A DNA stretch of 64,000 bases from Vallitalea pronyensis (GTDB taxonomy: Bacteria > Bacillota > Clostridia > Lachnospirales > Vallitaleaceae): assembly GCF_018141445.1 (NCBI RefSeq), contig NZ_CP058649.1:1879001-1943000 (forward strand). The letters are read 5' to 3'. The notes under the pieces are model-generated. The model had not been told where the DNA came from. It made no database searches and saw only the letters and a list, made by a program, of their open reading frames with translations. The translations under genes were made by a program, and so were the position numbers. Of the stretch, positions 14,964 to 50,052 are shown piece by piece. The stretch's first letter is position 1. The number at the start of each line of letters is the position of its first letter.

Positions 14964-14981
14964 ATAAGGCAGGTGAAAGAA

Positions 14982-15866: not shown

Positions 15867-15873
15867 CTGCTTT

Positions 15874-15902
15874 TTGACAATTCCTAATTGCATTATTAGA
15901 TA
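15874..15902 (+). promoter_or_regulatory. Possible internal promoter before binding-protein gene
   Basis: A consensus TTGACA (15874-15879) and TAGATA (15897-15902), 17 bp apart, lie just after the permease stop. This would allow extra expression of the binding lipoprotein. Confidence 0.45.
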
Positions 15903-15930
15903 GCTATATTAAAGAGAGAAGGAGATTAGT

Positions 15931-17565
15931 ATGAAGAAAAAATGGATAACGTTAATGGTAGTTTTTGTATTATCGATGACAGCCATGTTCAGCGGTTGTG
16001 GTCAAAAAGACAATGCCTCATCGTCAGATGTGAAAACAAGTGGCGACGCAACAGATAACAACAAAGCAGAAGAAGCTAATTTTAACGAGACAGGTCTTCC
16101 AATCGTTCAAGAACCTGTTACGTTAAAAGTAGCAGCACGAAAAAGAGAAAGCATTAAAAAGCCTTTCGAAGAACTGGAGATGTTCAAACAGATACAAGAA
16201 GCAACCAATGTTCATGTAGAATGGCAAACAACCCCTGTTTCTTCTTGGAATGAGAAGAAAAATCTCATTCTTTCAGGCGGGAAATGGCCAGATGTTTTCT
16301 ATGGCAATTACGTGCTGAACGATAATGAAATCGTGAAGTTGGCAGCAGATGGTGTTTTTATACCCTTAGAGGATCTCATTGACAAGTATGCACCTAACAT
16401 TCAGAAAGTGTTTGAAGAATATCCTGAATTTAAAGCTTATATTACAGCGGCAGATGGTCATATCTATTCTCTACCAACCATACACGCCAATTTCCCTTAT
16501 GCCATTGGTGCTCAGTTCATTAATAAAAGATGGCTGGATGAATTAGGGTTAGAAATTCCTGAAACAACCGACGAATTTTATGAGGTGTTAAAGGCATTTA
16601 AGGGTCGTGGCAACAGTGATGAAGTGCCTTTAAGTTTTAGGTACATGAAAGGTGCTTCCGCTATACAGGGTATTGCAGGTATGTTTGGGTCATTTGGTTT
16701 AACGGATAATGATATGCATATCGTTGTCAAGGATGATAAGGTCATCTACACAGCCATTCAGCCGGAATATAAGGAAGCTGTTAAGTATATGCACACTTTG
16801 TTTGCTGAAGGACTTGTGGATGTGGAGTCATTCTCTCAAACGTACCCCGTGTATAAGTCCAAAATGAAAAATTCCAAGGTTGGTGTGGTGAATTTATGGG
16901 GACTTAATGGGGTATTCGGCGGCAATTATAAAGAATCAGATTATGTATTTATGCCCCCATTAAAAGGACCGGGTGGTGACCAAGGTTATGTATGGAAGCC
17001 TAGTGGTGCTTTATCTGGCAAAGGATCTTTTTTAATTACAAGTACGTGTCAACACCCTGAAGTGGCCATACGATGGGCAGATTATATGGTTGACCCAGAA
17101 ATAAGCTTCCAGTTATCAGAAGGCCCAATTGGTAAAACTTTTGAAAGAACAGAAGATGGAAAGTTGAAACCCATACCTGATCCTGAAGGTATGAGTCATG
17201 ATGAATTTCGACATCAGGAAACGGCTGGTGCAAACAGTTTTCATATGGTCACAGCAGAATTCTTAAAGAATGTGATACCAAGTTCAGGTGTAGCTGAAAA
17301 ACGCAGCTATGAACCAATCTATGAAAAAGTGAAAGACAGCATCATGTTCCCACCATACTATGAAAGTCCTGAGGATGCTAAGCGGGCTGCTATTATTCGA
17401 GCAGATGTGGACGAATACATAAGAGAAACCACGTCCAGATGGATGTTGTCCGGTGGTATTGAGGAAGAATGGGATGCCTATGTGAAACAGTTGAAAGCCA
17501 TGGGGGTTGATGAATTGCAAGAAATTTATCAAAGAACCTATGACACCGGTCAATCCATGAAATAG
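15931..17565 (+). CDS. ABC importer 2 binding lipoprotein (LplA type)
   Basis: A 544-residue extracellular lipoprotein with lipobox FSGC (lipidated Cys23), an acidic/Ser-rich linker, then a large solute-binding fold (VEWQTTPVSSWNEKKNLIL, LPDVFYGN-like GKWPDVFYGN, PEVAIRWADYMVD). Proteins of this size class bind oligosaccharides and work with LplB/YtcP permeases. It is paralogous to the 54809 lipoprotein, sharing segments such as ISQDFY-free ALKAFK and the terminal LKAMGVDELQEIYQ pattern. AGAAGGAG supports the start. It is likely the receptor for an oligogalactan fragment in this setting, which is an inference. Confidence 0.9.
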   Translation: MKKKWITLMVVFVLSMTAMFSGCGQKDNASSSDVKTSGDATDNNKAEEANFNETGLPIVQEPVTLKVAARKRESIKKPFEELEMFKQIQEATNVHVEWQTTPVSSWNEKKNLILSGGKWPDVFYGNYVLNDNEIVKLAADGVFIPLEDLIDKYAPNIQKVFEEYPEFKAYITAADGHIYSLPTIHANFPYAIGAQFINKRWLDELGLEIPETTDEFYEVLKAFKGRGNSDEVPLSFRYMKGASAIQGIAGMFGSFGLTDNDMHIVVKDDKVIYTAIQPEYKEAVKYMHTLFAEGLVDVESFSQTYPVYKSKMKNSKVGVVNLWGLNGVFGGNYKESDYVFMPPLKGPGGDQGYVWKPSGALSGKGSFLITSTCQHPEVAIRWADYMVDPEISFQLSEGPIGKTFERTEDGKLKPIPDPEGMSHDEFRHQETAGANSFHMVTAEFLKNVIPSSGVAEKRSYEPIYEKVKDSIMFPPYYESPEDAKRAAIIRADVDEYIRETTSRWMLSGGIEEEWDAYVKQLKAMGVDELQEIYQRTYDTGQSMK

Positions 17566-20054: not shown

Positions 20055-23126
<3,072 letters not shown>

Positions 23127-23940: not shown

Positions 23941-24183
23941 GGTATTTTCTTAGTTATTATACTACACAATGAACGGAATGAATAATGATTATGATAAAAG
24001 CCCTAAGTTTTTTTATTCTGTCTGCTAATGTTGAATCATACTCACATTTTTTCTGCTTGGTTGACATTATTTCAAATGAATCGGGTAAATTTGTTTAGAG
24101 TGATACATAAAAAGACTAGCTATTATAAATAAATGTAAAAAATAGCTGATCTTCATGGATGATAAATTGATAACCCATGTGAA

Positions 24184-24222
24184 AAAGTGTAAATTTACGC
24201 TGTTCCTTAGGTGTTTTATGAT
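24184..24222 (+). promoter_or_regulatory. Promoter of GH42-like gene, shared ATTTAC motif
   Basis: TTTACG (24194-24199) and TATGAT (24217-24222) are 17 bp apart, and AAAAGTGTAA precedes the -35, giving GTGTAAATTTAC. Confidence 0.65.
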
Positions 24223-24268
24223 GGTTATGTACAATTTAATGTACAAAATAATATTAAGGGAGGCATTT

Positions 24269-27079
24269 ATGCGTAAACCAAAAGGTAAAATAATGACAAT
24301 GATTTGCATCCTATTATTACTAATGAATGGATTCACATTATCAGCCTATGGAAAAGAAAGGGTGAGGGATTGTCATGTCACGAAAGACGTAACACTCCTG
24401 GAAGAGGTACTGGTTAAGCTGCAACTATTAAGGGAATTGAAAGATGTAGCAGAACAGGAAGGGTATGATGTTGAGAGAGAAAAGGCTGCCATATGGATGG
24501 CAGAGCAATTTCTTAAGTTTGCAGATTGGGATGAAGCACATATTGAAGAGAATGCAACGGCTTTTGGATCGGCACCCATGTACAAAAACAGTGATACCCA
24601 AAAGATGGCAGAAGAATTACCGGACTTTGAGCGTCGTGAAGTGTTAAAAATGGTGGAGAAATCCTTGCTAGACTTACAACAGGTGATGGCAGGTACAGTG
24701 AGCCGAGAACCTGTTAGGTTAGTGGAGTGGGATAAAGTCACTGTACAAAACGGCCAATATGTCAACAGTGATGGCAAACCCGTCTTCTTATATGATTATT
24801 TTTCTAAAGCACATGGAGCACCACAAAATGACCCTGAATTATATAATGATTACTTGGGAAATATTGTGCATCCATTATCATTGAGTACCTTAATGTGCGC
24901 CACTGAAGAGGGGGACTTAAATGACAGAGCCATAAATGAAGTTATACATTTTGACACGTATTATCCAGGTGCTGGGGACAATATTGGGTATATGTTTTTA
25001 TGGCATAAAGGAAACTTAATTCCTAAATGGGCTCAAGAAAAATATGGTGTAGAAAACTTGAACCAAGGCATATCAACGTATACATCCTATGACATTGATA
25101 ATCCTTATATCCGGGACATGTGGACAAAAATCTTTGATAAGCTAATTCCTCAAATAGCAGGTAGAAAACAAGATACTTTAGGGTATGTACTCACCAATGA
25201 GCCCCATTGGGTAACGGATCAAAACAACAAATGGTTTGCCGTTAAAAATGGTATCAGTGACCATACATTAGCGTATTATAGAACTTGGTTGCAGGAAAAG
25301 CATGGTGATATTGCAACGCTTAATCAATTATGGGGAACGGCGTATAACGCATTTGATGAGATTACAGTTGAAGTACCTATGGATATCCCGGCTATTCGAG
25401 GTACACCTATGGGTTATGATTGGCAAAGGTTTAACATGGACCGTGTCATGAACTGGTTCACCTTTTTACATGATGGCATTCTAGAGAATGACCCCACAGC
25501 AACAACCCACTTTAAGATTTTCCCACGTTTTATTACCGGTGAATCAGGGTATCGGGATCATGGTATTGATGTAGAAGCTATTTCCATGATGACTGAAATG
25601 GTTGGACATGATGCCACCATACGAAAAGCAAACAATCTTGCTGTGGAGCCAGAAGCTTGGGAGACGAATTATGTGTACTACTGGCGTGAAGCAGCCATGA
25701 TGAATGATTTATTAAGCTCTTTTGGGCCAGACAAAATCAACATTAACTCCGAGTCACATTTTGCATCCACATCCAATTATAGGGATTTAGAAATGGCACC
25801 AGAATATGTGCGTTCAGCCTATTGGCTTTCTACCATTACTGGCACCCATGCAAACTTAACATGGTGGTGGCCAAGATATGCCGATGGTTCCATTGAACCA
25901 AGACATCTTAATAACTTATCTAAAGCAAAAAGTTACCCAGGTTCAGTGGTGCAACAGCCAAGAGTAGCCAATGAAATCACACAAACATTCTTTGACATGA
26001 ATGCCCATTCTGAAACACTTGTTAAGTTCCAACAGCAAGAAAAGCCTATACGGTTATTCTATTCAGAAACGGCCAATATTCAGGATAAAGAGCAAATTAA
26101 CAAACTGTTTGATGCATATGAGTCCATGTATTTTGAAGGCATGCCAATGGGTTTTGCCACACAGAGAATTTTGGATGAAGAAGTTGGTGCCTTTGATGTG
26201 GTGGTTATATATGATACACCAACGGTGACAGACGCAGAATTCGAAGCGGTTCAAAACTATCTGAATGCTGGCGGAACGGTTATCATGGATGAAGTCAGTC
26301 TGGTAGCTGATGAATATAAAAAAGAGCGTCATGAATTGTTGATGGCTGGTAACGGACAGCTGGTTGTTGTGGAACAAAATACCTTAGAAAACATGAAAGC
26401 AGAAGCATTTAAAATTGTCCAACATAAAATGCCCACTGTTATTGTAAAAGAAGACAATGGTTTAGCACAAAAAGGTTGTATCTGGCGTGTTGTTGATGGC
26501 GATGATGAAGACAATAAAGTGGTGACCGTTATCAATGTGGGTAAAAACACAGCTCAACTAACCATTGAAGGCATAAACAGGGATAACACAAAAGTCATTG
26601 ATTTATTAACAGGTCAAGCATTGCCTCATAAGATACAATTACCACCAGAAGGTGTATTGTTCCTAAATGTAGGGAATAAGTCAGCTTGGGCAATACATGA
26701 TCCTGTTAAAGGTCTCAAAGAGCCGATCACAGCAGTTGTTACCGTTGGTGATTCAACAATCATGAGTTGGATGGGTGGTGAAAATGAAAAGTATCATGTA
26801 TATGCCAATGATCAATTGGTAGCCAGCAACATCCATGCAACCACCATTAAGTTGTCAGGCATGCTACCAGAAGAGGGTGTTAACTTTGTTGTGAAACTGG
26901 CTAAGGGCAAACCTGTAGCAGCAACCCTGACGAAGCCATACAAAGTGGTAAAAGGAGATACCTTAGCTAAAATAGCCAAAGGATACCATACTACTTTGCA
27001 GGTACTGCAACAGATCAATGACATAAAAAATCCCCATTACATTCATGTAAACCAGATAATCCTTGTACCAACACAGTAG
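24269..27079 (+). CDS. Secreted GH42-like (possibly GH167) glycoside hydrolase with C-terminal LysM
   Basis: A 936-residue exported enzyme. Order: signal peptide (about 1-28), a helical N-terminal segment, a clan GH-A TIM barrel from about residue 150 with candidate acid/base Glu311 (TNEPHW) and nucleophile Glu495 (NINSESHFAS), a GH42-like Rossmann domain (about 590-720, IRLFYSETANIQD, FDVVVIYDTPT), beta domains, and a LysM domain (about 890-936, YKVVKGDTLAKIAKGYHTT). LysM should hold it on peptidoglycan. Distant GH42-like enzymes classed as GH167 act as exo-beta-carrageenases in marine Pseudoalteromonas; I propose but cannot prove that relation. The ATG at 24269 follows AAGGGAGG (24256-24263); an upstream ATG at 24155 has no ribosome binding site and would bury the signal peptide. 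It is monocistronic. Confidence 0.75.
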   Translation: MRKPKGKIMTMICILLLLMNGFTLSAYGKERVRDCHVTKDVTLLEEVLVKLQLLRELKDVAEQEGYDVEREKAAIWMAEQFLKFADWDEAHIEENATAFGSAPMYKNSDTQKMAEELPDFERREVLKMVEKSLLDLQQVMAGTVSREPVRLVEWDKVTVQNGQYVNSDGKPVFLYDYFSKAHGAPQNDPELYNDYLGNIVHPLSLSTLMCATEEGDLNDRAINEVIHFDTYYPGAGDNIGYMFLWHKGNLIPKWAQEKYGVENLNQGISTYTSYDIDNPYIRDMWTKIFDKLIPQIAGRKQDTLGYVLTNEPHWVTDQNNKWFAVKNGISDHTLAYYRTWLQEKHGDIATLNQLWGTAYNAFDEITVEVPMDIPAIRGTPMGYDWQRFNMDRVMNWFTFLHDGILENDPTATTHFKIFPRFITGESGYRDHGIDVEAISMMTEMVGHDATIRKANNLAVEPEAWETNYVYYWREAAMMNDLLSSFGPDKININSESHFASTSNYRDLEMAPEYVRSAYWLSTITGTHANLTWWWPRYADGSIEPRHLNNLSKAKSYPGSVVQQPRVANEITQTFFDMNAHSETLVKFQQQEKPIRLFYSETANIQDKEQINKLFDAYESMYFEGMPMGFATQRILDEEVGAFDVVVIYDTPTVTDAEFEAVQNYLNAGGTVIMDEVSLVADEYKKERHELLMAGNGQLVVVEQNTLENMKAEAFKIVQHKMPTVIVKEDNGLAQKGCIWRVVDGDDEDNKVVTVINVGKNTAQLTIEGINRDNTKVIDLLTGQALPHKIQLPPEGVLFLNVGNKSAWAIHDPVKGLKEPITAVVTVGDSTIMSWMGGENEKYHVYANDQLVASNIHATTIKLSGMLPEEGVNFVVKLAKGKPVAATLTKPYKVVKGDTLAKIAKGYHTTLQVLQQINDIKNPHYIHVNQIILVPTQ

Positions 27080-27300: not shown

Positions 27301-29172
27301 TTAAGCTCTTGGCAGCCACACACTCATATCGCTTTCTTCTCTGTTTGCCCAAGCAAAATAAGGGATGAAGCGAACGGGTACTTTTTTATCATCATCTTTT
27401 GTAAGAGGGTGATAAAGGGCGTCACCTTTTGGTCTTCTTACAAGCTCCGCTTTTAACCCAACCATATGATAAGGCAGATCGGTGATGATTTCTTCCTCAA
27501 ATTCAGTGTCAGTGGACAGGGCTAACTCGTCCATGGATATGCCATCAGCAATATCACAACCTTCTAGGCAGTAGACAACGGGACCCCTTTTGACAGCTAC
27601 CATACCGTTAGCTTGTTCAACCAGTGGATTAGCCGTATACAATGTTGCCTTCATTGGTAAAAGAATAGTCAGTGTGTCATCTGATTGAACCATCACATCA
27701 TGCATACCCGGTTCAATAGGCTTACCGTTGCATGTTGCTTCATGACACCAAGATGGAATACGGAATGAAAGAGTCATATTTTCAGGTGCTTCTATAATAT
27801 GAATGTTCACTTCTTCATCCCAAGGATAATTAGAGGTCATGTTTATCTTAACAGGTGCTCCACTAGATAGCTTTGTATCCAGTTCACTTCCAGCGAAGAG
27901 ATTAATGGAAACCCCATCTTCAGCTAATGAATAGATCCACTTAGGCATGCCTGTGTAGGTACGCCATAATTGTGGCGGGCAGCACCAACAGTCAAATGTA
28001 AAGAAGCGCTCATTAGGTACATGGGAATATTGTTCAAAAGTAGGTTTGATTCGTTCATTTATCCGGTGAGATAGAGGATTAGCATAGAAATAACGGAGCA
28101 TATCAAGACTGGAGCCAGATATACCTGCGTTATAAAGAATATTTTCCATCCAGTCCCCGTAGGTTGCTTTGTTGGTTAAGGCCAGCATACGTTTCGCCCA
28201 CATGGCTACAGCTATATTGGCACAGGTTTCATTATACGCGATACGATGAGGTAAGTTAAATTCATCACTAAACGCTTCGTGAACATGATCGCCTCGCTCT
28301 GAAATCCCCACATAGAGAGGGCACACGCCACCTGTAATGTAGATGCGTCTGTCAACCATGTCATCCCAAATGCGCTCAAGAGCTGTCATAAGGGCTTCTT
28401 CTTCTGTATGGGCATAAACATCAGCAGCACCTGCATAGAGATAGGCAGCAGTCACTGCATGACCTACAGGTTTGATTTCATCACGAAGTGCTACACGGTT
28501 TTGGTTCTGATCCCCATTACCTAACTTAGTACCACGCATGGTCACAAAGATATCAGCAAGTTTAAGATAGTTAGCTTCTTTTGTTAAGCGATACAGTTCA
28601 ACAAGGCCCATAATCTGACTGGGATTGAAACCAAAATCACCTAACGCAGGATTAAGAGGTATAAAGACGGTACATAAATAATCAGCAGCACGTTTGGCTA
28701 CATTTAAAAGGCGTTGGTCACCTGTGGCTTCATAATGGACACATGCACAAGAAAAGAGATGACCATAATTGTACAGCTCGTGGAAATTAGGATTTGCCCA
28801 ACGTGCTTTATCCGTTAAGGTTATCTGTGTACATATGTATCCATCAGCCTCTTGAGCAGCTTCAATCCAAGGAATATATTGATTCATGATACGAAGAATG
28901 TCAGGATCTTTTGTAACAGCATATTGGTTGGCACAACCTTCGATGAATTTATAACAGTCTCCATCCGACCAGTCGTTCCTATAAAATTCGCCTTTGACTT
29001 CACCTGCTGCAATTCCAAAGTTCAGCATTCTTGCCGCATTTTTTTCATTTAATAGTGCCGCTTCCAGATTTTTAATGATATGCATGTAGTCTTTCACTCT
29101 GTTGCCCCAGAAACCAGACGTTAATTTGGCTTCTCCCGTTTTAATCGGTTGGAAATTTCGTTGTTTATTCAT
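27301..29172 (-). CDS. GH127 glycosidase, probable 3,6-anhydro-D-galactosidase
   Basis: A 623-residue cytoplasmic enzyme (no signal peptide) with the GH127 (alpha/alpha)6 barrel and C-terminal beta-sandwich. The metal/catalytic set of beta-L-arabinofuranosidase HypBA1 is conserved: Glu299 (Glu322), Glu315 and Cys317 in YNETC (Glu338, Cys340), and Cys395/397/398 in CWCC (Cys415/417/418). GH127 contains beta-L-arabinofuranosidases, and in Zobellia also alpha-1,3-3,6-anhydro-D-galactosidases acting on carrageenan oligosaccharides. Divergent transcription from the anhydro-sugar catabolic genes favours the second activity. A shared promoter region with the 29352 sulfatase supports co-regulation. 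Arabinofuranosidase remains the alternative. Confidence 0.85.
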   Translation of the reverse strand: MNKQRNFQPIKTGEAKLTSGFWGNRVKDYMHIIKNLEAALLNEKNAARMLNFGIAAGEVKGEFYRNDWSDGDCYKFIEGCANQYAVTKDPDILRIMNQYIPWIEAAQEADGYICTQITLTDKARWANPNFHELYNYGHLFSCACVHYEATGDQRLLNVAKRAADYLCTVFIPLNPALGDFGFNPSQIMGLVELYRLTKEANYLKLADIFVTMRGTKLGNGDQNQNRVALRDEIKPVGHAVTAAYLYAGAADVYAHTEEEALMTALERIWDDMVDRRIYITGGVCPLYVGISERGDHVHEAFSDEFNLPHRIAYNETCANIAVAMWAKRMLALTNKATYGDWMENILYNAGISGSSLDMLRYFYANPLSHRINERIKPTFEQYSHVPNERFFTFDCWCCPPQLWRTYTGMPKWIYSLAEDGVSINLFAGSELDTKLSSGAPVKINMTSNYPWDEEVNIHIIEAPENMTLSFRIPSWCHEATCNGKPIEPGMHDVMVQSDDTLTILLPMKATLYTANPLVEQANGMVAVKRGPVVYCLEGCDIADGISMDELALSTDTEFEEEIITDLPYHMVGLKAELVRRPKGDALYHPLTKDDDKKVPVRFIPYFAWANREESDMSVWLPRA

Positions 29173-29240
29173 GATATACGACTCCTTTTTAAGTTTGATG
29201 TGTTCATAAGTAGTGCTTGTTGGTGTATAAGAAAAGTTTA

Positions 29241-29283
29241 AATGTAAAACGTCCTTGCAAAAAAAGTAAATATCCGTTACAAT
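29241..29283. promoter_or_regulatory. Overlapping divergent promoters, GH127 (-) and sulfatase (+)
   Basis: Plus strand: TTGCAA (29255-29260), 17 bp, TACAAT (29278-29283). Minus strand: GGATATTTACT with TTTACT (29270-29265), 17 bp, TTACAT (29247-29242). The two promoters interlock, so polymerase at one should exclude the other unless a regulator arbitrates. Confidence 0.6.
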
Positions 29284-29287
29284 AGTT

Positions 29288-29301
29288 ATATGATATCATA
29301 T
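29288..29301. promoter_or_regulatory. 14-bp perfect palindrome ATATGATATCATAT, candidate operator
   Basis: It lies immediately downstream of the plus-strand -10 and 51 bp before the sulfatase start, followed by a partial copy TATCTGATA (29301-29309). The size and AT-rich symmetry suit a GntR-type regulator such as the one at 11362, but this link is an inference. Confidence 0.4.
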
Positions 29302-29351
29302 ATCTGATAACAATGCAAGATATAACGATAGTTAGTGAGGAGAAATGTATA

Positions 29352-30902
29352 ATGAATATTTTTATGATCATGTGTGATGAATTAAGAGCCGATGTAATGG
29401 GCTATTTAGGTAATGACACCATCAAGACACCTCATTTGGATGCATTAGCAGAGGATTCCATTATCTTTGAAAACGCATACTGCAATACACCCATGTGTGT
29501 ACCATCAAGAGTGAGCATAGCTACTGGTCGGCATGCCTTGAGTCATGGGGCGTTAGACAATATGCTTAGGCCACTGGATGATGAAGTTTCTATCTATAGT
29601 ATGCTTCAAAAAGAAGGTTATATAACCTTTAATCATGGAAAATGGCATAGTAATATTGCACCTGAAAAATTTGGTGTCACTTTTTCCAATAACGGTAGCC
29701 ATCGAACACAAGGAGCAGAAAAGCAGGTCACATGTTTTGGTATCACCGATCGTGAGTTAAGAAAAGAAACCACTTATAAAAGAAATGATGGCGAAATTCC
29801 ACTCATTATATATGGTACAAGACCTTCCCATAAAGATCATACACTGGACAGTGTGGTAACAAAAAATTATTTAGATGTGCTTGATCATTTAGATGAAGTA
29901 GGTCAGCCTGTTTTTGGAAGGTTGTCCATCATGGACCCTCATACACCCTATTTCCCATCTGAACCTTACGCATCCATGTATCCTCCTGATGCACTGCCAT
30001 TACCTGACAGTATCCAGGAAGACCTTCATACGAAACCTGTCTTACAGCGTTATTTTCACAAAGTAAGAGGGTTTGATTTATTAGAAGAACAGGATTATAG
30101 ACAATGTAAGGCGGCCTATTATGGCTTAGTCACCCATGTGGATGATCGGATAGGTCAGGTGATTGACCGGTTAAAGGCATTGGATTTATATGATGACAGT
30201 TTGATTATTTTTACATCGGACCATGGCAGTATGTTAGGGGAACACGGTTACATAGAAAAATGGGGGCATATGTATGAGCAGGTCATGCGAACACCTTTAC
30301 TCATTAAACCGCCTCATAATCCCTACAAAGGTAAACGCTTGGATAGTTTTGTGGAGTCCATTGATATCATGCCAACCATTCTTGAACTGCTGAACTTGGA
30401 GATACCTGATGGCGTACAAGGAAAAAGCTTGGTGCCTTATATGACTGGGAAAACGTCAGTGCATAAGGAAGAAGTCTATGGGCAGTATTATTGCGGTTCC
30501 TTGCAAAATACACCTGCATTAATGGTAAGAGATGAGACATGGAAATTGACTTATTACCCAGAAGGCAATGCCATGGAAGACAAATTATTAAATGACCATC
30601 CCCTTAAAATGTCCCCTATGTTTGAAAAGAAAGATGTGTTTGGTGAGTTATACCATATGGGCAATGACCCAGATGAGATTCATAATCTGTTTGATGATCC
30701 AGCTTATGCCACCATAAAAGAGTCGTATATGGCCAAGTTAGAGAATTGGAAAAAAGACCTTGAACCCATAGTTGTTGCAGATACCATGCCATCCCATAAT
30801 GACTTAAGCCTTCACGTGTTAACCCAAGGTGAAAACATGACAGCAGCTCAGGACTTACTTCGAGGTGAGGGACGATTAAGGCAGTTAAAACGAAAGTCAT
30901 GA
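29352..30902 (+). CDS. Cytoplasmic S1-family sulfatase
   Basis: A 516-residue type I sulfatase with no signal peptide. Motifs: MCDELRADVMGYLGN (metal), CVPSRVSIATG with Cys49 as formylglycine precursor, GKWHSN, and TSDHGSMLGEHG (metal). It is distinct from the 9758/12394 pair. GAGGAG at 29337-29342 selects the ATG at 29352 over 29313. It is the first gene of the probable operon 29352-35313 encoding anhydro-sugar catabolism, so it probably removes a sulfate from galactose or anhydro-galactose units of imported carrageenan oligosaccharides before GH127 or GH2 attack. The exact sulfate position cannot be read from sequence. Confidence 0.92.
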   Translation: MNIFMIMCDELRADVMGYLGNDTIKTPHLDALAEDSIIFENAYCNTPMCVPSRVSIATGRHALSHGALDNMLRPLDDEVSIYSMLQKEGYITFNHGKWHSNIAPEKFGVTFSNNGSHRTQGAEKQVTCFGITDRELRKETTYKRNDGEIPLIIYGTRPSHKDHTLDSVVTKNYLDVLDHLDEVGQPVFGRLSIMDPHTPYFPSEPYASMYPPDALPLPDSIQEDLHTKPVLQRYFHKVRGFDLLEEQDYRQCKAAYYGLVTHVDDRIGQVIDRLKALDLYDDSLIIFTSDHGSMLGEHGYIEKWGHMYEQVMRTPLLIKPPHNPYKGKRLDSFVESIDIMPTILELLNLEIPDGVQGKSLVPYMTGKTSVHKEEVYGQYYCGSLQNTPALMVRDETWKLTYYPEGNAMEDKLLNDHPLKMSPMFEKKDVFGELYHMGNDPDEIHNLFDDPAYATIKESYMAKLENWKKDLEPIVVADTMPSHNDLSLHVLTQGENMTAAQDLLRGEGRLRQLKRKS

Positions 30903-30969
30903 CTTAAGGGATAATGGGTAACTATAATGATATAATGAAAAAGGATGGGCAGTCACAGGGAGGACTTAG

Positions 30970-32112
30970 ATGAAAATAAAAAATGTAGAAACCATTGTAC
31001 TCAAACAAACATTGGATGAAGGGGTTTCCTTTGCTTATTCTCAAGCATGGTATAACACCAGAACCATTATGATTCTTAAAGTCACAACAGATACAGGTAT
31101 TGTTGGCTGGGGGGAATCCTTTGGGCCAGCTTTTGTTAATCAGGTGATTATTGACAAATACTTTAAAGACTACTTAATTGGTAAAGACCCTTTGGATATC
31201 GAAGTCATTTGGGAAGGACTTTACAACATGATGCGGGATCATTGTTCCAAGGGTAATGCCATAGAAGCTATCAGTGCAGTAGATATTGCATTATGGGATA
31301 TTAAAGGTAAGTATTTTAACCAACCCATTTATAAACTCCTTGGAGGTACACCAAGAAAGAAAATTAGGCCTTATGCCACTGGATTATATAGGCATGTATT
31401 ACCTACAGACATGGATGTTCTGGTTGAAGAAGCAAAAGGCTATCAAGAAGCGGGTTTCAAAGCCATGAAAATCAAAATTGGTTTTGGAATAGAAGACGAT
31501 ATTCATGCAGTAAAAGCCATTCGAGAGGCTGTTGGTGATGAGATGATGCTCATGGTGGATGCCAATCATGCCTATAATGCCAGCACAGCATTAAAAATCT
31601 GCCAAGGGATTGAAAAGTATGATATAAGATGGTTTGAAGAGCCTGTTCCACCAGAGGACATTGAAGGCTATAGGGAAGTCAAGCGTCATACGAGCATTCC
31701 CATAGCAGGCGGGGAGGCAGAATTTACCCGATTTGGGTTCAATCATCTTCTTGGAAAACGGGCAGTAGATGTGGTGCAGCCGGACTGTGGTGTAACTGGT
31801 GGTATCTCAGAATTTAGAAAAATAGCTGTCCTGGCATCGGTGAACAATATCCAATGTTACCCACATGTATGGGGAAGTGCTATTGCCCTCTATACGGGCA
31901 TTAACTGTGCCTTTGCATTACAAGATTTTCCCAACAAGCTGGTTCAAGAAGATATGTTGCTGGAATATGACCGTACGGAGAATATATTTCGAGAACGTTT
32001 GGCAAAAGAGCCATTGGAATTAGTGGATGGTTATATATTGCCCCCAACCAAACCAGGGCTTGGTATTGAGATTAATGAAGCACTATTGGAAGAATATCGG
32101 GTTGAAGCATAG
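30970..32112 (+). CDS. Enolase-superfamily cycloisomerase, probable 3,6-anhydro-galactonate cycloisomerase
   Basis: A 380-residue mandelate racemase/muconate lactonizing enzyme-type protein. Catalytic pattern: K167-x-K169 in MKIKIG, metal ligands Asp197 (MVDAN), Glu223 (FEEP) and Glu249 (GGEAEF), and His299 in PHVWGSAIAL. In red-algal galactan metabolism a member of this superfamily converts 3,6-anhydro-galactonate to 2-keto-3-deoxy-galactonate. Encoded between a sulfatase and an aldehyde dehydrogenase, followed by aldolase and kinase, it fits that step better than generic sugar-acid dehydration. Galactonate or galactarate dehydratase is the alternative. Confidence 0.8.
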   Translation: MKIKNVETIVLKQTLDEGVSFAYSQAWYNTRTIMILKVTTDTGIVGWGESFGPAFVNQVIIDKYFKDYLIGKDPLDIEVIWEGLYNMMRDHCSKGNAIEAISAVDIALWDIKGKYFNQPIYKLLGGTPRKKIRPYATGLYRHVLPTDMDVLVEEAKGYQEAGFKAMKIKIGFGIEDDIHAVKAIREAVGDEMMLMVDANHAYNASTALKICQGIEKYDIRWFEEPVPPEDIEGYREVKRHTSIPIAGGEAEFTRFGFNHLLGKRAVDVVQPDCGVTGGISEFRKIAVLASVNNIQCYPHVWGSAIALYTGINCAFALQDFPNKLVQEDMLLEYDRTENIFRERLAKEPLELVDGYILPPTKPGLGIEINEALLEEYRVEA

Positions 32113-32127
32113 AAGGAGGTAGAGAAA

Positions 32128-33555
32128 ATGTTGTATCAATGTTATATTAATGGTAAGAGAGTAGCAGGTCGTGACGGTGAAAAGAATGTGATTAATCCCG
32201 GTACAGAAGAAGTCATCGGGCAAGTATCCTTAATTGATGAAGAACAAGCAAAAGAAGCACTCATAGCAGCCCAAAAAGGGTTTGCCTATTGGTCTGGACT
32301 GACCATCCGTGAAAGGGAAGAGTGGATTAATCGATTAAAGCTGGCTGTCATGGATGAAGAAGAAGAGATTGTTGATTTATTAATGATGGAAACAGGTAAG
32401 CTATACGATAGTGCGAAGGAAGATTATCAGATGCTTATTGACTGTTTTGACTTTTTCACAGATGAAGCCAAAAACATGGAAGATGAAATCATCCGTGACG
32501 CAGAAGGAAGTCATCACAATATCATCACACGCGAACCTATTGGTGTGGTTGTTGCCTATTTAGCTTGGAACTTTCCATTATTGAACCTTGGCTATAAATT
32601 AGGACCCGTATTGGCATCAGGCTGTTCTTGTGTTATTCGACCATCCGAATCCACACCTTTAGCCACTCTTAAAATAGGTGAAATTCTTGAAAAAATCAAA
32701 TTCCCTAAGGGGGTTGTTAATTTAGTCCTTGGTGATGTAAGTAAGATATCCCATGTATTGAACAGTAGTGATATTACCCAGCTTATCACCTTAATAGGGT
32801 CCACCAATACAGGTAAAAAAGTAATCAACGATTCGACCACATCCATTAAGCGGTTTTCATTGGAATTAGGTGGCAATGCTCCAGCAATTGTGCTAAAGGA
32901 TTACGATGAAAAGAAAGCGGCAAGAACCTTAACCCATTTCAAATTTGCAAACTGCGGGCAGGTATGTGTCAGTCCCAATCGTATATTTGTTCATGAAGAC
33001 CAATACGAAAGCTTTGTCCACGAAGCCCTAGAAGTGGCTCAGACCATCAAAGCAGGTTGGGGGAAAGAGAAAGGGGCATCCATAAGCCCGATGATTTCAA
33101 AACGAGCAAGAGATAGGATGTTTGATATCGTTGAAGACGCCCTTCAAAAAGGAGCAAGGCTTGTATATGGCGGTAAAGTGCCAGAAGAAAAAGATAAAGG
33201 ATTCTACATGATGCCTACCATCTTAGCAGATGTCACAAAGGATATGAAGTGCTATCAAGAGGAGATATTTGGACCCATTATGCCTATTTTAAAGTATAAT
33301 GAACAATTGGATTTAATTGAGGCAGGTAACGATACAGAGTATGGGCTGACTTCCTATGTATTCTCTAACGACATGAAGGCCATCAACCAAATAGCAAAAG
33401 GACTAAAAGCAGGTACGGTTTGTGTCAACAAGCCTAAATATGCTGTTGAATTACCTCATGGAGGTATTAAAGAGAGCGGTATTGGTAAAGATTGCTCTAA
33501 ATATTCGTTGGAAGAATACTATTATATTAAACGTATTTCCATTGCCATGGACTAG
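32128..33555 (+). CDS. NAD(P)-dependent aldehyde dehydrogenase, probable 3,6-anhydro-galactose dehydrogenase
   Basis: A 475-residue aldehyde dehydrogenase of normal length. Catalytic Cys280 lies in NCGQVCVSPNR and the general base Glu246 in SLELGGNAP; a Rossmann cofactor site (GSTNTGKKV) is present. It would oxidise 3,6-anhydro-galactose to the aldonate, the first cytoplasmic step once GH127 has freed the anhydro sugar. Support comes from gene order: 15 bp after the cycloisomerase and before aldolase and kinase. Succinate-semialdehyde- or lactaldehyde-type dehydrogenases look similar, so the substrate is inferred from context. AAGGAGGT precedes the ATG. Confidence 0.8.
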   Translation: MLYQCYINGKRVAGRDGEKNVINPGTEEVIGQVSLIDEEQAKEALIAAQKGFAYWSGLTIREREEWINRLKLAVMDEEEEIVDLLMMETGKLYDSAKEDYQMLIDCFDFFTDEAKNMEDEIIRDAEGSHHNIITREPIGVVVAYLAWNFPLLNLGYKLGPVLASGCSCVIRPSESTPLATLKIGEILEKIKFPKGVVNLVLGDVSKISHVLNSSDITQLITLIGSTNTGKKVINDSTTSIKRFSLELGGNAPAIVLKDYDEKKAARTLTHFKFANCGQVCVSPNRIFVHEDQYESFVHEALEVAQTIKAGWGKEKGASISPMISKRARDRMFDIVEDALQKGARLVYGGKVPEEKDKGFYMMPTILADVTKDMKCYQEEIFGPIMPILKYNEQLDLIEAGNDTEYGLTSYVFSNDMKAINQIAKGLKAGTVCVNKPKYAVELPHGGIKESGIGKDCSKYSLEEYYYIKRISIAMD

Positions 33556-33633
33556 GTAATCCTATACAATAACAATAAGAGATGACATGCATGTTCAGTA
33601 GGTTAGATGAAGGTGTTGTGGAGGAGAATTAGA

Positions 33634-34278
33634 ATGACCATTATCGATCGAGTTAAGCAAGAAAAAATAATTGCCATTGTGAGAGGCATTGAACCAAACA
33701 GAATCATTGACACATGTGAGGCATTATATGCTGGTGGTATTTCCATGATTGAAATTACCTTTGATCAATCCAGCCCAACAGGTAATAAGGATACGTATCA
33801 TGCCATTAAAAAAGTAGCAGACACCTTGGGGAAGGAAGTGTGTGTTGGCGCAGGAACAGTGATGACCATTGAACAAGTCTCCCTAGCTATTGAAGCAGGA
33901 GCAACGTACATCATATCCCCTAATTTTGATAAGGCAGTTGTAGCGAAGACTCTTGAAGGAGGGGCTGTATCCATGCCTGGGGTCATGACACCTTCTGAAA
34001 TCGTTGATGCTTATCAAGCAGGAGCAGGAGCCGTGAAGATATTTCCCATAGATCGTTTGGGTACAGGCTATTTAAAAGCTGTCAAATCCCCCATTAGTCA
34101 TATTCCCATCATTGCAGTTGGTGGCATCGACCTTGATAATGCTTCAGACTATATAAAAGCTGGTGCTATAGGTCTGGGTATTGGCTCTAGCCTTGTTGAC
34201 AAGCAATTAATCCAGGCAGGCAAATATGACGCATTAACACAACGGGCTAAGGCATTCGTTCATAAAGTCCAAATGTAA
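33634..34278 (+). CDS. eda: KDPG/KDPGal-type aldolase
   Basis: A 214-residue class I aldolase of the KDPG family. Glu40 (MIEITFD) and Schiff-base Lys135 (AVKIFPID) are in their expected places, and the phosphate-binding GGI region is present (AVGGIDLDN). It splits 2-keto-3-deoxy-6-phospho-sugar acids into pyruvate and glyceraldehyde-3-phosphate. GGAGGAG at 33620-33626 selects the ATG at 33634 rather than 33607. With the kinase 12 bp downstream it completes the lower part of the anhydro-galactose route; in that role its substrate would be KDPGal. Confidence 0.9.
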   Translation: MTIIDRVKQEKIIAIVRGIEPNRIIDTCEALYAGGISMIEITFDQSSPTGNKDTYHAIKKVADTLGKEVCVGAGTVMTIEQVSLAIEAGATYIISPNFDKAVVAKTLEGGAVSMPGVMTPSEIVDAYQAGAGAVKIFPIDRLGTGYLKAVKSPISHIPIIAVGGIDLDNASDYIKAGAIGLGIGSSLVDKQLIQAGKYDALTQRAKAFVHKVQM

Positions 34279-34290
34279 AGGAGAGTAATT

Positions 34291-35313
34291 ATGGCAAACA
34301 TTGTATGTTTTGGTGAAATTATGGGTAGGCTGTGTCCACCTGGCTACAAGAAAGTATTACAAACAACAAGTTTTGATGTAACCTTTGCAGGTGGTGAAGC
34401 CAATGTAGCTGTATCCCTTGCCAACTATGGTCTAGATGCAACTTATGTAACGAAAGTGCCCAATAATGATTTGGGAAAACTGGTAAAAAGAATATTGAAG
34501 AGCTATGACGTCAATGTGAATCAAATCCTTACCGGCGGTGATAGGCTGGGTATGTACTACGTTGAAAAAGGTGCATCACAGCGGCCATCAAAGGTTATCT
34601 ACGACCGAAAATACAGCGCTATTTCCATGGCAGATCCAAGTGAATTTAATTGGGACCATATCCTTGAAGGTGCTGATTGGTTTCACACCACAGGCATTAC
34701 ACCGGCCCTATCAGATACGTGTATTGAGATAACGCGAGATGCTCTACAAGCCTGTAGAAAAAAAGGTATTACAGTCAGTTGCGACTTGAATTATCGAAAG
34801 AATCTCTGGGACTGTGATAAAGCCAAGGCGGTTATGTCTGACCTTATGCAATACGTTGATGTATGCATTGGCAATGAGGAGGATGCTGAAAAGGTATTAG
34901 GTATCTCCGCATCAGAAACAGATGTAACAGCAGGTGCATTAAACAAAGCAGGTTACACAGAAGTTGCTCAGGCAATCACGGAGCAATATGGATGTAAAAC
35001 AGTTGCCATTACCCTTCGAGAAAGTTACTCAGCCAGTGTTAATGGCTGGTCAGCCTTACTCTACACAGGCGGTAAGAGTTATTTCTCCAAAAAATATGAT
35101 ATTCAATTAGTGGATCGTGTAGGCGGTGGCGATAGTTTCGTAGGGGGTCTGTTGTATGCCCTTCTTGAAAGAACCGAACCACAAGACCAAGTGGACTTTG
35201 CTGTAGCGGCAAGTTGCTTGAAACATACCATCGAAGGGGACTTTAATCAGGTGACCATTCAAGAGGTTGAAACACTCATGAACGGGGATGGGTCAGGCAG
35301 GGTACAAAGATAG
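34291..35313 (+). CDS. kdgK: PfkB-family 2-keto-3-deoxy-sugar-acid kinase
   Basis: A 340-residue ribokinase-fold enzyme of the KDG kinase group. The N-terminal motif FAGGEANVAVSLANYG and the C-terminal GGGDSFVGGLLYAL with catalytic Asp281 are PfkB hallmarks. It phosphorylates 2-keto-3-deoxy-gluconate or -galactonate for the aldolase encoded just upstream. It is the last gene of the run starting at 29352 and has AAAGGAG before the ATG. About 40 bp after its stop begins the long nested palindrome that probably terminates the operon. Confidence 0.88.
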   Translation: MANIVCFGEIMGRLCPPGYKKVLQTTSFDVTFAGGEANVAVSLANYGLDATYVTKVPNNDLGKLVKRILKSYDVNVNQILTGGDRLGMYYVEKGASQRPSKVIYDRKYSAISMADPSEFNWDHILEGADWFHTTGITPALSDTCIEITRDALQACRKKGITVSCDLNYRKNLWDCDKAKAVMSDLMQYVDVCIGNEEDAEKVLGISASETDVTAGALNKAGYTEVAQAITEQYGCKTVAITLRESYSASVNGWSALLYTGGKSYFSKKYDIQLVDRVGGGDSFVGGLLYALLERTEPQDQVDFAVAASCLKHTIEGDFNQVTIQEVETLMNGDGSGRVQR

Positions 35314-35718: not shown

Positions 35719-35783
35719 GTTTGGCATATAGCCATCTTTGGTTTGATGGCATAATGTGGAAAAACAAGTATAGGAGGAGCGAT

Positions 35784-38183
35784 ATGGAAAACCAAGTGCG
35801 GAAAATAATCAATTTGGATAACGATTGGACGTTTAAAAAGGGTATGGATCTTGCTGGATTTAGTGATAGAATAGATGACGCTGATTGGTGCTCCATTCAT
35901 CTACCACATGATTGGAGCATATTTGGACCCTTTAAAGAAGATAATCCAAGCGGTCCACGAGGCGGATACGCACCAGCAGGAATTGCTTGGTATCGTAAGC
36001 ATCTCCATGTACCCCAAGACTATGCTAATAAAAAGATATACATTGAATTTGACGGGGTTTATATGAACAGTGAAGTGCACATGAATGGTGAGCGGGTAGG
36101 AAAGTACCCCTATGGGTATACAACCCTTTATTACGATATCACATCGTATCTTAAGTATGGTGAGGATAATCTACTGTCCGTAAAGGTGGATACATCCACT
36201 CAGCCAAGTTCAAGATGGTACAGTGGTTCAGGGATCTATCGCCATGTGCGGCTAATTGTGACGGATAAACTTCATATAGGCCAATGGGGGACTTATGTGA
36301 CAACACCTGAGGTTCATGAGAAAGAAGCATGGGTGAAGATTGATACAACCCTTGTGAATGAAGCAAATGAGCACAAGAACGTGACCATTCAAGTAAGTCT
36401 TCTCAATGAAGCTCAATTAGTTGTTGGGAAAGTGAGCAAAGAAGTAGTAATTGAGCCAAATAGTGAAGACGTATTCAGCCAAGAGATATACGTTCAGCAG
36501 CCAGAACTTTGGTCCATCGATAATCCCTATCTGTATCACGTGAAGACGGAGATTATATCTGAGGGTTGCGTTGTTGATGATGACTTGGTTGCCATGGGCA
36601 TCCGTTCCATTGTATTTGATGCAGATAAAGGCTTCTTCCTTAATGGCACATACACCAAGATTAAAGGGGTATGCCTTCACCATGATGGTGGTGCGTTAGG
36701 AGCAGCTTGTCCGGATCGAGCAAAAGAAAGGCAGCTTCAAATACTAAAAGAAATGGGTTGTAATGCCATAAGAACAAGTCACAACCCGCCATCGCCTGTG
36801 CTCCTTGATCTATGTGATCAATATGGGATGCTTGTCATGGATGAAGTATTTGATGAATATCAAATTGGAAAAAGGCCAAGGGTGTTTGATGAGGTGCATG
36901 CCTTAGATAAGCAGATAAGAAGACCCATATTTGCTTATGCGGAAGTATTTGATGCCTATCATGAAAAAGACCTGACCACCATGATTAAGCGAGACCGTAA
37001 TCATCCTTCCATAATATTATGGAGTATTGGTAATGAAATCACGGAACATATGCGACCAGAAGGTGTTGAACTGACAAAGGGTTTGCATGATTTGGTAAAA
37101 GCATATGATACAACAAGACCAACCATAACAGGCATCGTTCATCTTGAAGGGGCTAATACATATGGCATACCTGATATGGTGGATATAGCTGGGTATAATT
37201 ACAAGGAAACTTTATATGAAAAGGAACATGCAAAATACCCTGAAAGAATTATATTAGGTAGTGAGACCAGTTCAGCAGCGCCATTTGAGATGCGAGCCGT
37301 TTACGATGATTTTTTACAAGCCGATACCCAACTAAAAACCTTTGATGATGTTACAAAAGAGCTTGGGGATATTGTGAGCATTCATTCAGACCACCGTTAT
37401 ATTCGAGGGGAGCATTCATGGAAAATAACAAATGATTTAGACTATATATCAGGACTCTTTATTTGGACGGGATTTGATTATATAGGAGAACCATCACCTT
37501 ATGCATGGCCATCTAAAACATCCTATTTTGGGGTGATTGACACCTGTGGCTTCCCAAAAGATGCTTATTACATGTACCAGAGTCAATGGACAACAAAGCC
37601 AATGCTCCACGTATTTCCTCATTGGAACTGGGAAGATAAGGCTGGTCAACACATACCCGTTTGGTGCTATACCAATTGTGATAGTGTTGAGTTGTTTTTG
37701 AATGACCGTTCATTAGGTGAAAAACATTGTAGCGATACAGAATTATTGCATGTAAGTTGGGCGATACCTTACGTAAAAGGTACCCTAAGAGCAGTCGGTA
37801 AGAAAGAGAATAAGATTGTACTTGAAAAAATCGTGAAAACAGCAGGGGATCCTTATGCCATTGTTTTAGAAGCCGATAGAAAAGCAATACAAGCCGATAG
37901 TCAAGATTTAGCCTACATCACCGTTAAAGTGGTGGATAAGGAAGGTACATTAGTGCCCACGGCAAAAAATCTGATTCATTTTCGTGTAGAAGGTGAAGGT
38001 CGCTTAATTGGTGTAGACAATGGTGACCCTACATCATTAGAAGCTTATAAGGGGGCTGAACGTTCCACTTTAGGCGGATTATGCCTTGCCATTGTTCAAT
38101 CCACATATAATAAAGGTAAACTTGTGGTTACAGCTGAATCGGAAGGTTTAGTGGGATGTCAACTTGTCCTGACATCCATATAG
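35784..38183 (+). CDS. GH2 glycosidase with C-terminal DUF4982/Ig-like domains
   Basis: A 799-residue cytoplasmic GH2 enzyme (no signal peptide), shorter than LacZ. Order: jelly roll, Ig-like domain, TIM barrel with acid/base Glu418 (WSIGNEI) and nucleophile Glu494 (LGSETSSAAP), then a DUF4982-like domain and an invasin/Ig-like domain (about 690-799, DPYAIVLEADRKAIQADSQ). This architecture is typical of GH2 beta-galactosidases in polysaccharide loci. AGGAGGAG (35772-35779) selects the ATG at 35784 over 35721. It stands alone after the anhydro-sugar operon and probably processes a different linkage or oligosaccharide size than the LacZ-type enzyme. Confidence 0.88.
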   Translation: MENQVRKIINLDNDWTFKKGMDLAGFSDRIDDADWCSIHLPHDWSIFGPFKEDNPSGPRGGYAPAGIAWYRKHLHVPQDYANKKIYIEFDGVYMNSEVHMNGERVGKYPYGYTTLYYDITSYLKYGEDNLLSVKVDTSTQPSSRWYSGSGIYRHVRLIVTDKLHIGQWGTYVTTPEVHEKEAWVKIDTTLVNEANEHKNVTIQVSLLNEAQLVVGKVSKEVVIEPNSEDVFSQEIYVQQPELWSIDNPYLYHVKTEIISEGCVVDDDLVAMGIRSIVFDADKGFFLNGTYTKIKGVCLHHDGGALGAACPDRAKERQLQILKEMGCNAIRTSHNPPSPVLLDLCDQYGMLVMDEVFDEYQIGKRPRVFDEVHALDKQIRRPIFAYAEVFDAYHEKDLTTMIKRDRNHPSIILWSIGNEITEHMRPEGVELTKGLHDLVKAYDTTRPTITGIVHLEGANTYGIPDMVDIAGYNYKETLYEKEHAKYPERIILGSETSSAAPFEMRAVYDDFLQADTQLKTFDDVTKELGDIVSIHSDHRYIRGEHSWKITNDLDYISGLFIWTGFDYIGEPSPYAWPSKTSYFGVIDTCGFPKDAYYMYQSQWTTKPMLHVFPHWNWEDKAGQHIPVWCYTNCDSVELFLNDRSLGEKHCSDTELLHVSWAIPYVKGTLRAVGKKENKIVLEKIVKTAGDPYAIVLEADRKAIQADSQDLAYITVKVVDKEGTLVPTAKNLIHFRVEGEGRLIGVDNGDPTSLEAYKGAERSTLGGLCLAIVQSTYNKGKLVVTAESEGLVGCQLVLTSI

Positions 38184-38432
38184 ATACATATATAAGGTTA
38201 TGAATTGTTTTGAAGACAAGATTCCGAATAGCATAAAAAAGTAATTTGTAGATAGATGGAGTCTTATTTGTTTTTATGTATAATAATAAAAAATAAAGTA
38301 TTCAGAAAATAAAAAATTCATCTTGACTTTTTTTCTTCCCATTGTCTCCTGTAAGGGATTATGATAGGGTGATTGGTACAAACGAGCCTATCCGGTCCGT
38401 TTGATACTAATTTAAAGAGGAGGAAGAGAAAA

Positions 38433-39620
38433 ATGAAAAAGGTAATACTATCTTGTTTGACAGTTATGTTTGTCTTACTGATGCAGACAAAAACGGTTGA
38501 GGCAGCTCCACCCGGTTCAGGTTGGACTCAAGTGTTTGGTGACGAATTTAATGACTACACCGTTGACACAAATAAATGGCGCGTATCTGACAATCTTGAC
38601 TACGATAAAGACGGCAATAAATGTTGGTTTTATCCAAGTAATGTAAAAGAAGATGGCAACTCCCTTGTTATTGAAAATCATTGGTATGCAAGTCCAGGTG
38701 CACATGGTGAAGTTTACTCCGGTGGCTGGATTACATCCAAGAAGGAATTTAACAAAGGTTATTTTGAAGCACGTATTCGTTTAGATTGGGCAGACCAGCA
38801 CTTCTGGCCAACTTTCTGGATGTGGAAATGGCAACCTACATCCCCTAATGAATTTGACATTATGGAGTATACCCATTGGCACACCCATCCAAGTCAATCC
38901 CATCACTATCCTAACAAAACTGGTAAAACCTCACAAGCTTCTAATACCCCTGTTAGTGAGTGGCATGTTTGGGGATTACTTTGGACGGATACAGAAGTCT
39001 CCTTCTATATTGACGGTGTTAAACAGTTTAGCTCCGAAAGACCAGATGTAGCACAGACCGATTGGCTCCCTATGATTTTTAGCTGTTCACCTAATCGAGA
39101 TAATCAACCTGCACGTACAGGTAAATACCCAAGATTGTTTGTTGATTGGGTACGTGTATGGCAGGGGGGAAGTGCTCCTCCAGTCACTACAGCACCTATT
39201 GGAAAAACCATCGCCCTTATTGCACAAGGTCCTAACAAGTATATCAGTGCCAGTCAGAGTCTAGATAGTGCCAATTGGCCAGTGGTCGCTAACAAGTCAA
39301 GCGTTGGTAATGCAGAAAAATTCAAGGTAGTGGATGCAGGTAATGGTTATATTGCCTTACAAAATGTTGCTAATGGGAAGTATGTGTGTTCTGACGAACA
39401 TCTAGATGCTACTAATTGGCGTTTATATGCTAATCGCAGCACCATTGGTGATTGGGAAAAATTCACATGGCATCCTGTGAGCGGTGGTGTTGCATTAAGA
39501 GCCAAAGGTAATGGAAAATATATTTGTTCGGATCGTTATCTTAACGCTACCAATTGGCCTTTAGCAGCTAATCGTAATACCATTGGCGCTTGGGAAAAGT
39601 TTAGCTGGGAAATAAAGTAG
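38433..39620 (+). CDS. Secreted GH16 endo-hydrolase with C-terminal beta-trefoil (fascin-like) domain
   Basis: A 395-residue exported enzyme. Signal peptide to about residue 24 (TVEA), GH16 jelly roll about 28-245 with the catalytic E-x-D-x-x-E motif at Glu140, Asp142 and Glu145 (EFDIME), then a fascin-like beta-trefoil (about 255-395) with three repeats of the KYI/VCSD ... ANR..IG..EKF pattern, probably carbohydrate-binding. GH16 includes kappa-carrageenases, agarases, porphyranases and laminarinases; the E-x-D-x-x-E beta-bulge form does not separate these. Context favours a galactan. AGAGGAGGAAG before ATG 38433 fixes the start; the TTG at 38373 has no support. It is monocistronic. Confidence 0.88.
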   Translation: MKKVILSCLTVMFVLLMQTKTVEAAPPGSGWTQVFGDEFNDYTVDTNKWRVSDNLDYDKDGNKCWFYPSNVKEDGNSLVIENHWYASPGAHGEVYSGGWITSKKEFNKGYFEARIRLDWADQHFWPTFWMWKWQPTSPNEFDIMEYTHWHTHPSQSHHYPNKTGKTSQASNTPVSEWHVWGLLWTDTEVSFYIDGVKQFSSERPDVAQTDWLPMIFSCSPNRDNQPARTGKYPRLFVDWVRVWQGGSAPPVTTAPIGKTIALIAQGPNKYISASQSLDSANWPVVANKSSVGNAEKFKVVDAGNGYIALQNVANGKYVCSDEHLDATNWRLYANRSTIGDWEKFTWHPVSGGVALRAKGNGKYICSDRYLNATNWPLAANRNTIGAWEKFSWEIK

Positions 39621-49981: not shown

Positions 49982-50052
49982 ATTGTTTTAAGTAAATGGG
50001 CTTGCTGTAGCGTATTTTCATGATACAGCCCACTAAATTCAAGGAGGTTAAA

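Follow-up and report, generated by a model that had tools for sequence, protein, structure and literature searches.

A predicted D-3,6-anhydrogalactose (Dau) operon in a large carrageenan-degrading region of the clostridium Vallitalea pronyensis

Introduction

In Zobellia galactanivorans, a single cluster (ZGAL_3145-3159; dagA, dauA-D) contains GH127, S1 sulfatases, an aldehyde dehydrogenase (ALDH), an MR/MLE enzyme, a 2-keto-3-deoxygalactonate (KDGal) kinase and a 2-keto-3-deoxy-6-phosphogalactonate (KDPGal) aldolase, as described in PMC5698469. The 2017 survey in that paper also places Firmicutes (Clostridia), with Epulopiscium named, among 29 species with carrageenan loci, gives dagA, dauA, dauB and dauD as the shared core, and reports dauC to be absent from some species, a non-phosphorylating route being suggested. 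Here we analyse 64,000 nucleotides of Vallitalea pronyensis (hereafter the window; G000:C1:1879001-1943000 in a genome, G000, of 6,325,483 bases on two contigs), where genes of the same kinds lie together in what is very probably an operon for D-3,6-anhydrogalactose (Dau), set in a large region that would serve carrageenan degradation in this clostridium.

Related systems resemble the window to different degrees. The Clostridia loci of the 2017 survey may be of the same kind, to judge from their description in PMC5698469. The CarPUL of Pseudoalteromonas (PS47) has GH167, as the window does, and this enzyme releases beta-neocarrabiose from the non-reducing end (PMC6923384). On a P. carrageenovora plasmid (L094), the order is ALDH-cycloisomerase-kinase-aldolase, so that ALDH adjoins the MR/MLE, kinase and aldolase genes as in the window, but the kinase is DGOK, TonB receptors are present and DauB belongs to a third branch. 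The L-anhydrogalactose pathway (5xd7) applies the same chemistry to the mirror-image sugar, with MR/MLE and ALDH enzymes of other branches and a GH43-like gene in place of the window's GH127. Algal-polysaccharide enzymes in Vallitalea and Clostridia feature in work on Kyphosus gut bacteria, and carrageenan loci in work on ruminant Bacteroides (PMC11077953 and PMC11333855, and PMC13168452, respectively); in the open-licence paper literature, no title on the window locus was found among the matches listed. Carrageenan loci for the anhydro-sugar are hence of a known kind, and the new element would be the swapped parts described below, which are only partly secured.

Results

Gene content and order of the operon

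The window has 38 open reading frames (ORFs) of at least 150 aa, 36 of which (all except 25-528 and 1025-1510) were scanned for families. Six genes, their families and a divergent GH127 had been proposed in a sequence-only reading, and are confirmed by open frames and Pfam matches. GH127 (27301..29172, minus strand), with matches to the catalytic (E-value 9.8e-82), middle and C-terminal domains of the family, is a candidate alpha-1,3-(3,6-anhydro)-D-galactosidase (DagA-like). The plus strand carries, in this order, an S1 sulfatase with a C-V-P-S-R motif at 62 (29313..30902, start perhaps at 29352; Sulfatase, 1.7e-46), the MR/MLE cycloisomerase (30970..32112; MR_MLE_C, 1.3e-65), the ALDH (32128..33555; Aldedh, 8.2e-140), a KDPG/KHG-type aldolase in the putative DauD role (33634..34278, open also from 33607; KDPG/KHG aldolase, 7.8e-38) and a PfkB-type sugar kinase in the putative DauC role (34291..35313; PfkB, 1.5e-35). 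Gaps of 67, 15, 51 and 12 bases space the run from sulfatase to kinase as closely as in an operon, and 140 bases separate the GH127 frame from that of the sulfatase, to which it lies head to head.

The residues named in the same reading are in place. The cycloisomerase has all the metal ligands, Lys base and His acid of the enolase superfamily (K167/K169, D197, E223, E249 and H299), the ALDH its catalytic Glu and Cys (E246 and C280) and the kinase D281. Lys135 of the aldolase is correct for the start at ATG 33634, which is preceded by GGAGGA, and corresponds to K144 in the longest frame. The active-site set of GH127 comprises E315 and C317 of NETCAN and CWCC at 395-398, whose roles we presume.

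Cycloisomerase and aldehyde dehydrogenase resemble DauB and DauA

The best PDB chains for the window cycloisomerase are 5olc (349 bits, 44% identity) and 4ggb (314 bits), all others being at 192 bits or below, and it is thus nearer 5olc than the L-anhydrogalactose cycloisomerase 5xd7 (157 bits). PMC5698469 identifies 5olc as DauB and 4ggb as galactarolactone cycloisomerase (GCI), and states that their catalytic residues are common to both.

For the ALDH, 6pnu is the best chain (445 bits, the next having 325). 6PNU is among the deposits of PMC6923384, whose aldehyde dehydrogenase is described as DauA, and we take 6pnu to be Pseudoalteromonas DauA because it is close to the P. carrageenovora gene in our ALDH tree (24 chosen loci); the ALDH encoded on the P. 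carrageenovora plasmid is 45% identical to that of the window. In this tree, a DauA-type clade that includes the window is set apart (100/99) from GabD, AldA, a Peribacillus enzyme and L049, which has a very long branch. The window ALDH pairs (96/90) with that of G003, a genome of the same genus, at the base of the clade, with G003 named as outgroup. At 18 of 30 positions whose residue is typical of DauA-type rows and missing from three other ALDHs, the window ALDH agrees with the DauA type; leave-one-out controls reach 3/33, 7/37 and 9/39. The match to the Dau pathway made in the sequence-only reading therefore finds support in a cycloisomerase nearest DauB, an ALDH nearest 6pnu and GH167 next door.

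For comparison we used the best 80 among 268 loci encoding a cycloisomerase relative; their record titles assign 67 to Bacteroidota and 13 elsewhere. DauA-type ALDH genes scoring above 300 bits are found in 58, and in 54 of these the ALDH gene immediately follows that of the cycloisomerase on the same strand; GH127 occurs in 22 and a GH167 relative in 6. Seven loci (L011, L014, L026, L030, L037, L040 and L064) have the window order cycloisomerase-ALDH-aldolase-PfkB kinase on one strand.

Elsewhere, on two Rhodobacterales plasmids (L105:3923-10135 and L100:7841-12564), DauA-like ALDH and MR/MLE genes lie behind genes for a GMC oxidoreductase and a gluconate dehydrogenase subunit, and an ABC importer is also present, L105 additionally carrying DGOK and an aldolase. 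These plasmid genes perhaps serve to scavenge the free sugar or a reduced form of it.

A PfkB kinase and a KDPG-type aldolase complete the run

The aldolase scores 164.9 bits with TIGR01182 (eda), above the cut-off of 156.05, and is of the class I KDPG/KHG type with a Schiff-base Lys. The kinase is PfkB (PF00294), not of the DGOK family, and its nearest models, NF041633 for a KDPG-aldolase/kinase fusion (552 bits) and NF041332 for a KDG/KDGal kinase (265 bits), both score below their cut-offs. By comparison, the kinases of P. carrageenovora, Flammeovirga and Sulfitobacter are PF05035 (DGOK), that of Zobellia being known by name only from PMC5698469; the single PF05035 match in the V. pronyensis genome is 1.2 Mb from the window operon.

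PfkB relatives of the window kinase occur in 16 of the 80 comparison loci (11 at 45-48% identity and five at 29-36%), DGOK relatives in 15, and both in none. Were the two independent among the 58 loci with ALDH (16 PfkB, 14 DGOK), about four would be expected to have both, although with related loci this figure does not amount to a statistical test. The PfkB loci include L011, L014, L026, L030, L037, L040, L056, L059, L064, L070 and L073, and the DGOK loci include L018, L027, L061, L078 and others. A PfkB kinase may be an alternative account of dauC missing in some species.

Predicted carrageenan genes adjoin the operon and in part recur in a genome of the same genus

Tail to tail with GH127 lies a GH167 exo-carrageenase homologue (24155..27079, plus strand; 974 aa), which matches 9whd and 6ptm at E ~1e-148 over residues 80-839. 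It has the catalytic Glu pair (NEPHW at 348 and NSESH at 531), and is probably held at the cell wall, given a C-terminal LysM (929-972) and a hydrophobic N-terminal segment at 46. At the far end of the window is a lambda-carrageenase family gene (61621..64000, plus strand), an open-ended ORF running beyond the window, with CGLA_M at 1.2e-89 over the whole gene and no PDB match at 0.001 for the piece inside the window. We take GH150 to be its family name. In PMC11333855, GH150 is used for carrageenases.

Among 59 genomes (V. pronyensis included), DauB-like at 1e-60, DauA-like at 1e-100 and GH167 at 1e-40 were each found only in G000 and G003, whose shared genus means that the co-occurrence does not reflect independent gains. 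Some GH127 at 1e-60 is present in 13 of the 59, and a GH127 at more than 60% identity only in G000 (two) and G003; these are at least 67% identical and near lambda-carrageenase or GH167 genes, the other listed matches reaching at most 36%. In a class sample of 391 genomes, DauB-like at 1e-90 was found in G000 only and GH127 at 1e-100 in five, four of them 36% identical. G003 has a block of sulfatase, importer, regulator, GH2, GH167 and GH127 genes with 53-78% identity to the window, in which GH167 and GH127 are head to head.

Phylogeny, points weighing against the assignment and rival readings

A number of observations weigh against the Dau assignment. The first cycloisomerase tree held all 80 comparison loci plus L004, the window, 5olc and 4ggb; a later one retained 38 of the 81 locus rows, to which eight were added (L094 twice, L095, L096, L097, L099, L100 and L101), L098 being excluded for an internal stop. 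In the best tree, the Bacteroidota DauB clade (100/100) does not include the window enzyme, which groups instead (88/75) with GCI, soil enzymes and the branch of P. carrageenovora DauB; forcing the window enzyme together with 28 Bacteroidota-side rows was not rejected in the AU test (p-AU 0.17). At 14 positions separating Bacteroidota DauB from GCI-type rows, the window has three DauB, six GCI and five other residues; P. carrageenovora DauB itself splits 6/6/2, so these signatures are undecisive. The top identity, 55%, is to a Methylomirabilota protein (L005) whose 15.8 kb locus lacks Dau neighbours, and the second-closest relative (L006) is on a 5.7 kb contig that ends at the gene. In the GH127 tree, from which L062 (partial) and other matches below 300 bits were excluded and Zobellia DagA sequences were absent, GH127 sits on a long branch with a V. 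pronyensis paralogue of 67-68% identity, and this branch joins the Bacteroidota GH127s weakly (81/37), and the best structure, 5mqo, goes with a best NCBIfam model for aceric acid hydrolase (576 bits, cut-off 950). The operon sulfatase scores 161 bits with 4upk, a phosphonate monoester hydrolase, against 157 with the exo-2S-iota carrageenan sulfatase 6pt4, and the GH16 described below ranks nearer other GH16 models and structures (EglC, 5wut) than carrageenase ones. In G003, no lambda-carrageenase domain was found (among the 59 genomes, G000 alone has it), and the ALDH and cycloisomerase genes are apart from GH127 on another contig.

Placement against characterized Dau and anhydrogalactose enzymes thus gives a mixed answer: the ALDH falls in the DauA-type clade, whereas the cycloisomerase and GH127 are not clear orthologues of DauB and DagA. 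The two may not be strict orthologues of the Zobellia proteins, while the case for their function by context is strong.

The tree position of the cycloisomerase nearer GCI and soil enzymes, together with kinase and aldolase types common to such routes, might suggest a D-galactonate or galactarolactone enzyme in a DeLey-Doudoroff-like route acting on the polymer's galactose half. This is improbable, since the enzyme scores 234 bits with the galactonate dehydratase model NF010624, below the cut-off of 311, and an adjacent DauA-type ALDH would be superfluous there. Moreover, an enzyme encoded at 5.827 Mb, beside a KDPG-type aldolase gene, reaches 500 bits with this model and would be the genome's DgoD. 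A preference for galactonate intermediates, which the sequence-only reading had named as its own refutation, is hence not what the sequence indicates.

It is still less likely that GH127 acts as a beta-L-arabinofuranosidase or aceric-acid hydrolase with no link to the sugar of the operon, as 5mqo and the sub-threshold aceric acid hydrolase match might imply. In the tree, a node with 100/99 support unites GH127 with 5mqo and the GH127s from the Bacteroidota loci and leaves out 4qjy, 6ex6 and a GH127 from an E. coli plasmid, and the relatives of the window GH127 at 67% or more in the 59 genomes are those near lambda-carrageenase or GH167 genes. The earlier statement that GH127 replaces GH117 stands only against the agar route and not against Zobellia, whose own route uses GH127 (PMC5698469).

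Least likely of all is that the operon serves the L-3,6-anhydrogalactose of agar or porphyran, for although the reaction types are the same and 5xd7 is a detectable relative of the cycloisomerase, GH167 and lambda-carrageenase genes in the vicinity of the operon point to carrageenan and a locus at 5.337 Mb is a far better match. The latter (L133:7781-12382; G000:C1 ~5.336-5.340 Mb) has a cycloisomerase with 499 bits to 5xd7 and 155 to 5olc, an AldA-type ALDH (510 against a PRK10090 cut-off of 500), a GntR regulator and a GH43-like gene, presumably GH117, that has relatives in eight plasmid records (Persicobacter, Catenovulum, Bacteroides, Microscilla and Phocaeicola). It is likely a separate L-anhydrogalactose operon. 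With better-matching genes for both jobs elsewhere in the genome, the window operon is unlikely to be an L-anhydrogalactose or galactonate route.

In G003, the contig with the ALDH and cycloisomerase genes (L087:4667-12540) presents a DauA-like ALDH, an ABC importer, DgoD, a GarL-like aldolase and the cycloisomerase, with no kinase seen among them, and a non-phosphorylating variant is possible.

Other features of the region

Upstream of GH167, the plus strand has an S1 sulfatase (12394..13917; the corresponding G003 locus has a 74% identical gene), two permeases and a solute-binding protein of an ABC importer (14010..17565) that is kept in the GH167/GH127 block of G003 and is likely for oligosaccharide uptake, and a GH2 LacZ-type beta-galactosidase assigned by Pfam (20058..23126; a 60% identical gene is beside GH167 in G003). 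Downstream of the operon, also on the plus strand, are a GH2 GalA/GalB-type beta-galactosidase (35721..38183; 808 and 798 bits, cut-offs 900) and a secreted-looking GH16 assigned by Pfam (38373..39620), which has a hydrophobic N-terminus. The wider window includes two GH2, the GH16, three ABC importer sets, three more sulfatases, a PL8-type lyase, GH43 and GH31. A crude hydropathy scan, not equivalent to signal-peptide prediction, revealed no hydrophobic N-terminal segment in the Dau enzymes and GH2 genes, none strongly so in GH127, and a milder hydrophobic start in the operon sulfatase.

The PL8-family lyase (51582-54617) lies beside a sulfatase (50020-51450; C-S-P-H-R), with GH43 and GH31 near, and a DUF5060/collagen-binding-like protein with CBM96 and a hydrophobic N-terminus is encoded on the minus strand (39757-42054). 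Genome-wide, 17 of 40 sulfatase matches are in C1:1.69-1.97 Mb, and there are four lambda-carrageenase middle-domain matches in three frames. Two of these middle domains are in one 1878-aa frame (G000:C1:1751895-1755686; L085, L086), not far from the second GH127 and from an ABC importer that shares 54-70% identity with that of the window.

A perfect palindrome, TATATGATATCATATA, is at 29287-29302 in the stretch separating GH127 from the operon, shortly after a sequence resembling a promoter. As a candidate operator it was set aside, for it is not enriched (three matches at up to three mismatches, 1.47 expected). Its core occurs in 6 of 124 loci, two of which (L002 and L108) are the window site itself, and no similar site was noticed on reading the G003 operon promoter. 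Part-likeness to the palindrome precedes a GntR/FCD gene (11294).

Discussion

The Dau reading is supported by the gene content, the catalytic residues, the closest relatives and the pattern of co-occurrence; it is compatible with each of the genes, and none of the refutations open to a sequence test overturns it. The activities, substrate stereochemistry and cell location that follow are predicted ones. Outside the cell, the secreted lambda-carrageenase, perhaps GH16, and the LysM-bearing GH167 would cut the polymer, and neocarrageenan oligosaccharides would enter through the ABC importer. In the cytoplasm, sulfatases, GH127 and GH2 would release sulfate, D-anhydrogalactose and D-galactose, after which the ALDH would oxidize D-anhydrogalactose to 3,6-anhydro-D-galactonate and the MR/MLE enzyme would open its ring to give 2-keto-3-deoxy-D-galactonate. 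The latter would be phosphorylated by the PfkB kinase and then cleaved by the KDPG-type aldolase into pyruvate and glyceraldehyde-3-phosphate.

Relative to the Zobellia locus, the window has ABC importers, a PfkB kinase and, in the 36 of 38 ORFs scanned, no TonB/SusCD-type domain, and neither its cycloisomerase nor its GH127 falls within the Bacteroidota clades of the best trees. We suggest tentatively, while leaning slightly towards doubt, that the clostridial route could be built from different parts than those of Zobellia and Pseudoalteromonas: a separately recruited cycloisomerase of the GCI branch, a deep-branching GH127 and PfkB in place of DGOK, together with a DauA-type ALDH. In that case, at least three branches of one MR/MLE subgroup would have gained or retained DauB activity, and PfkB kinases would account for some of the "missing dauC".

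If the Dau reading is correct, one clostridial genome would have separate routes for D- and L-anhydrogalactose as well as a galactonate route, a natural set for examining how enzymes of the ALDH and MR/MLE types distinguish sugars that are mirror images. Carrageenan catabolism would also be seen to proceed with an ABC importer in place of TonB-dependent uptake and with a kinase from another family.

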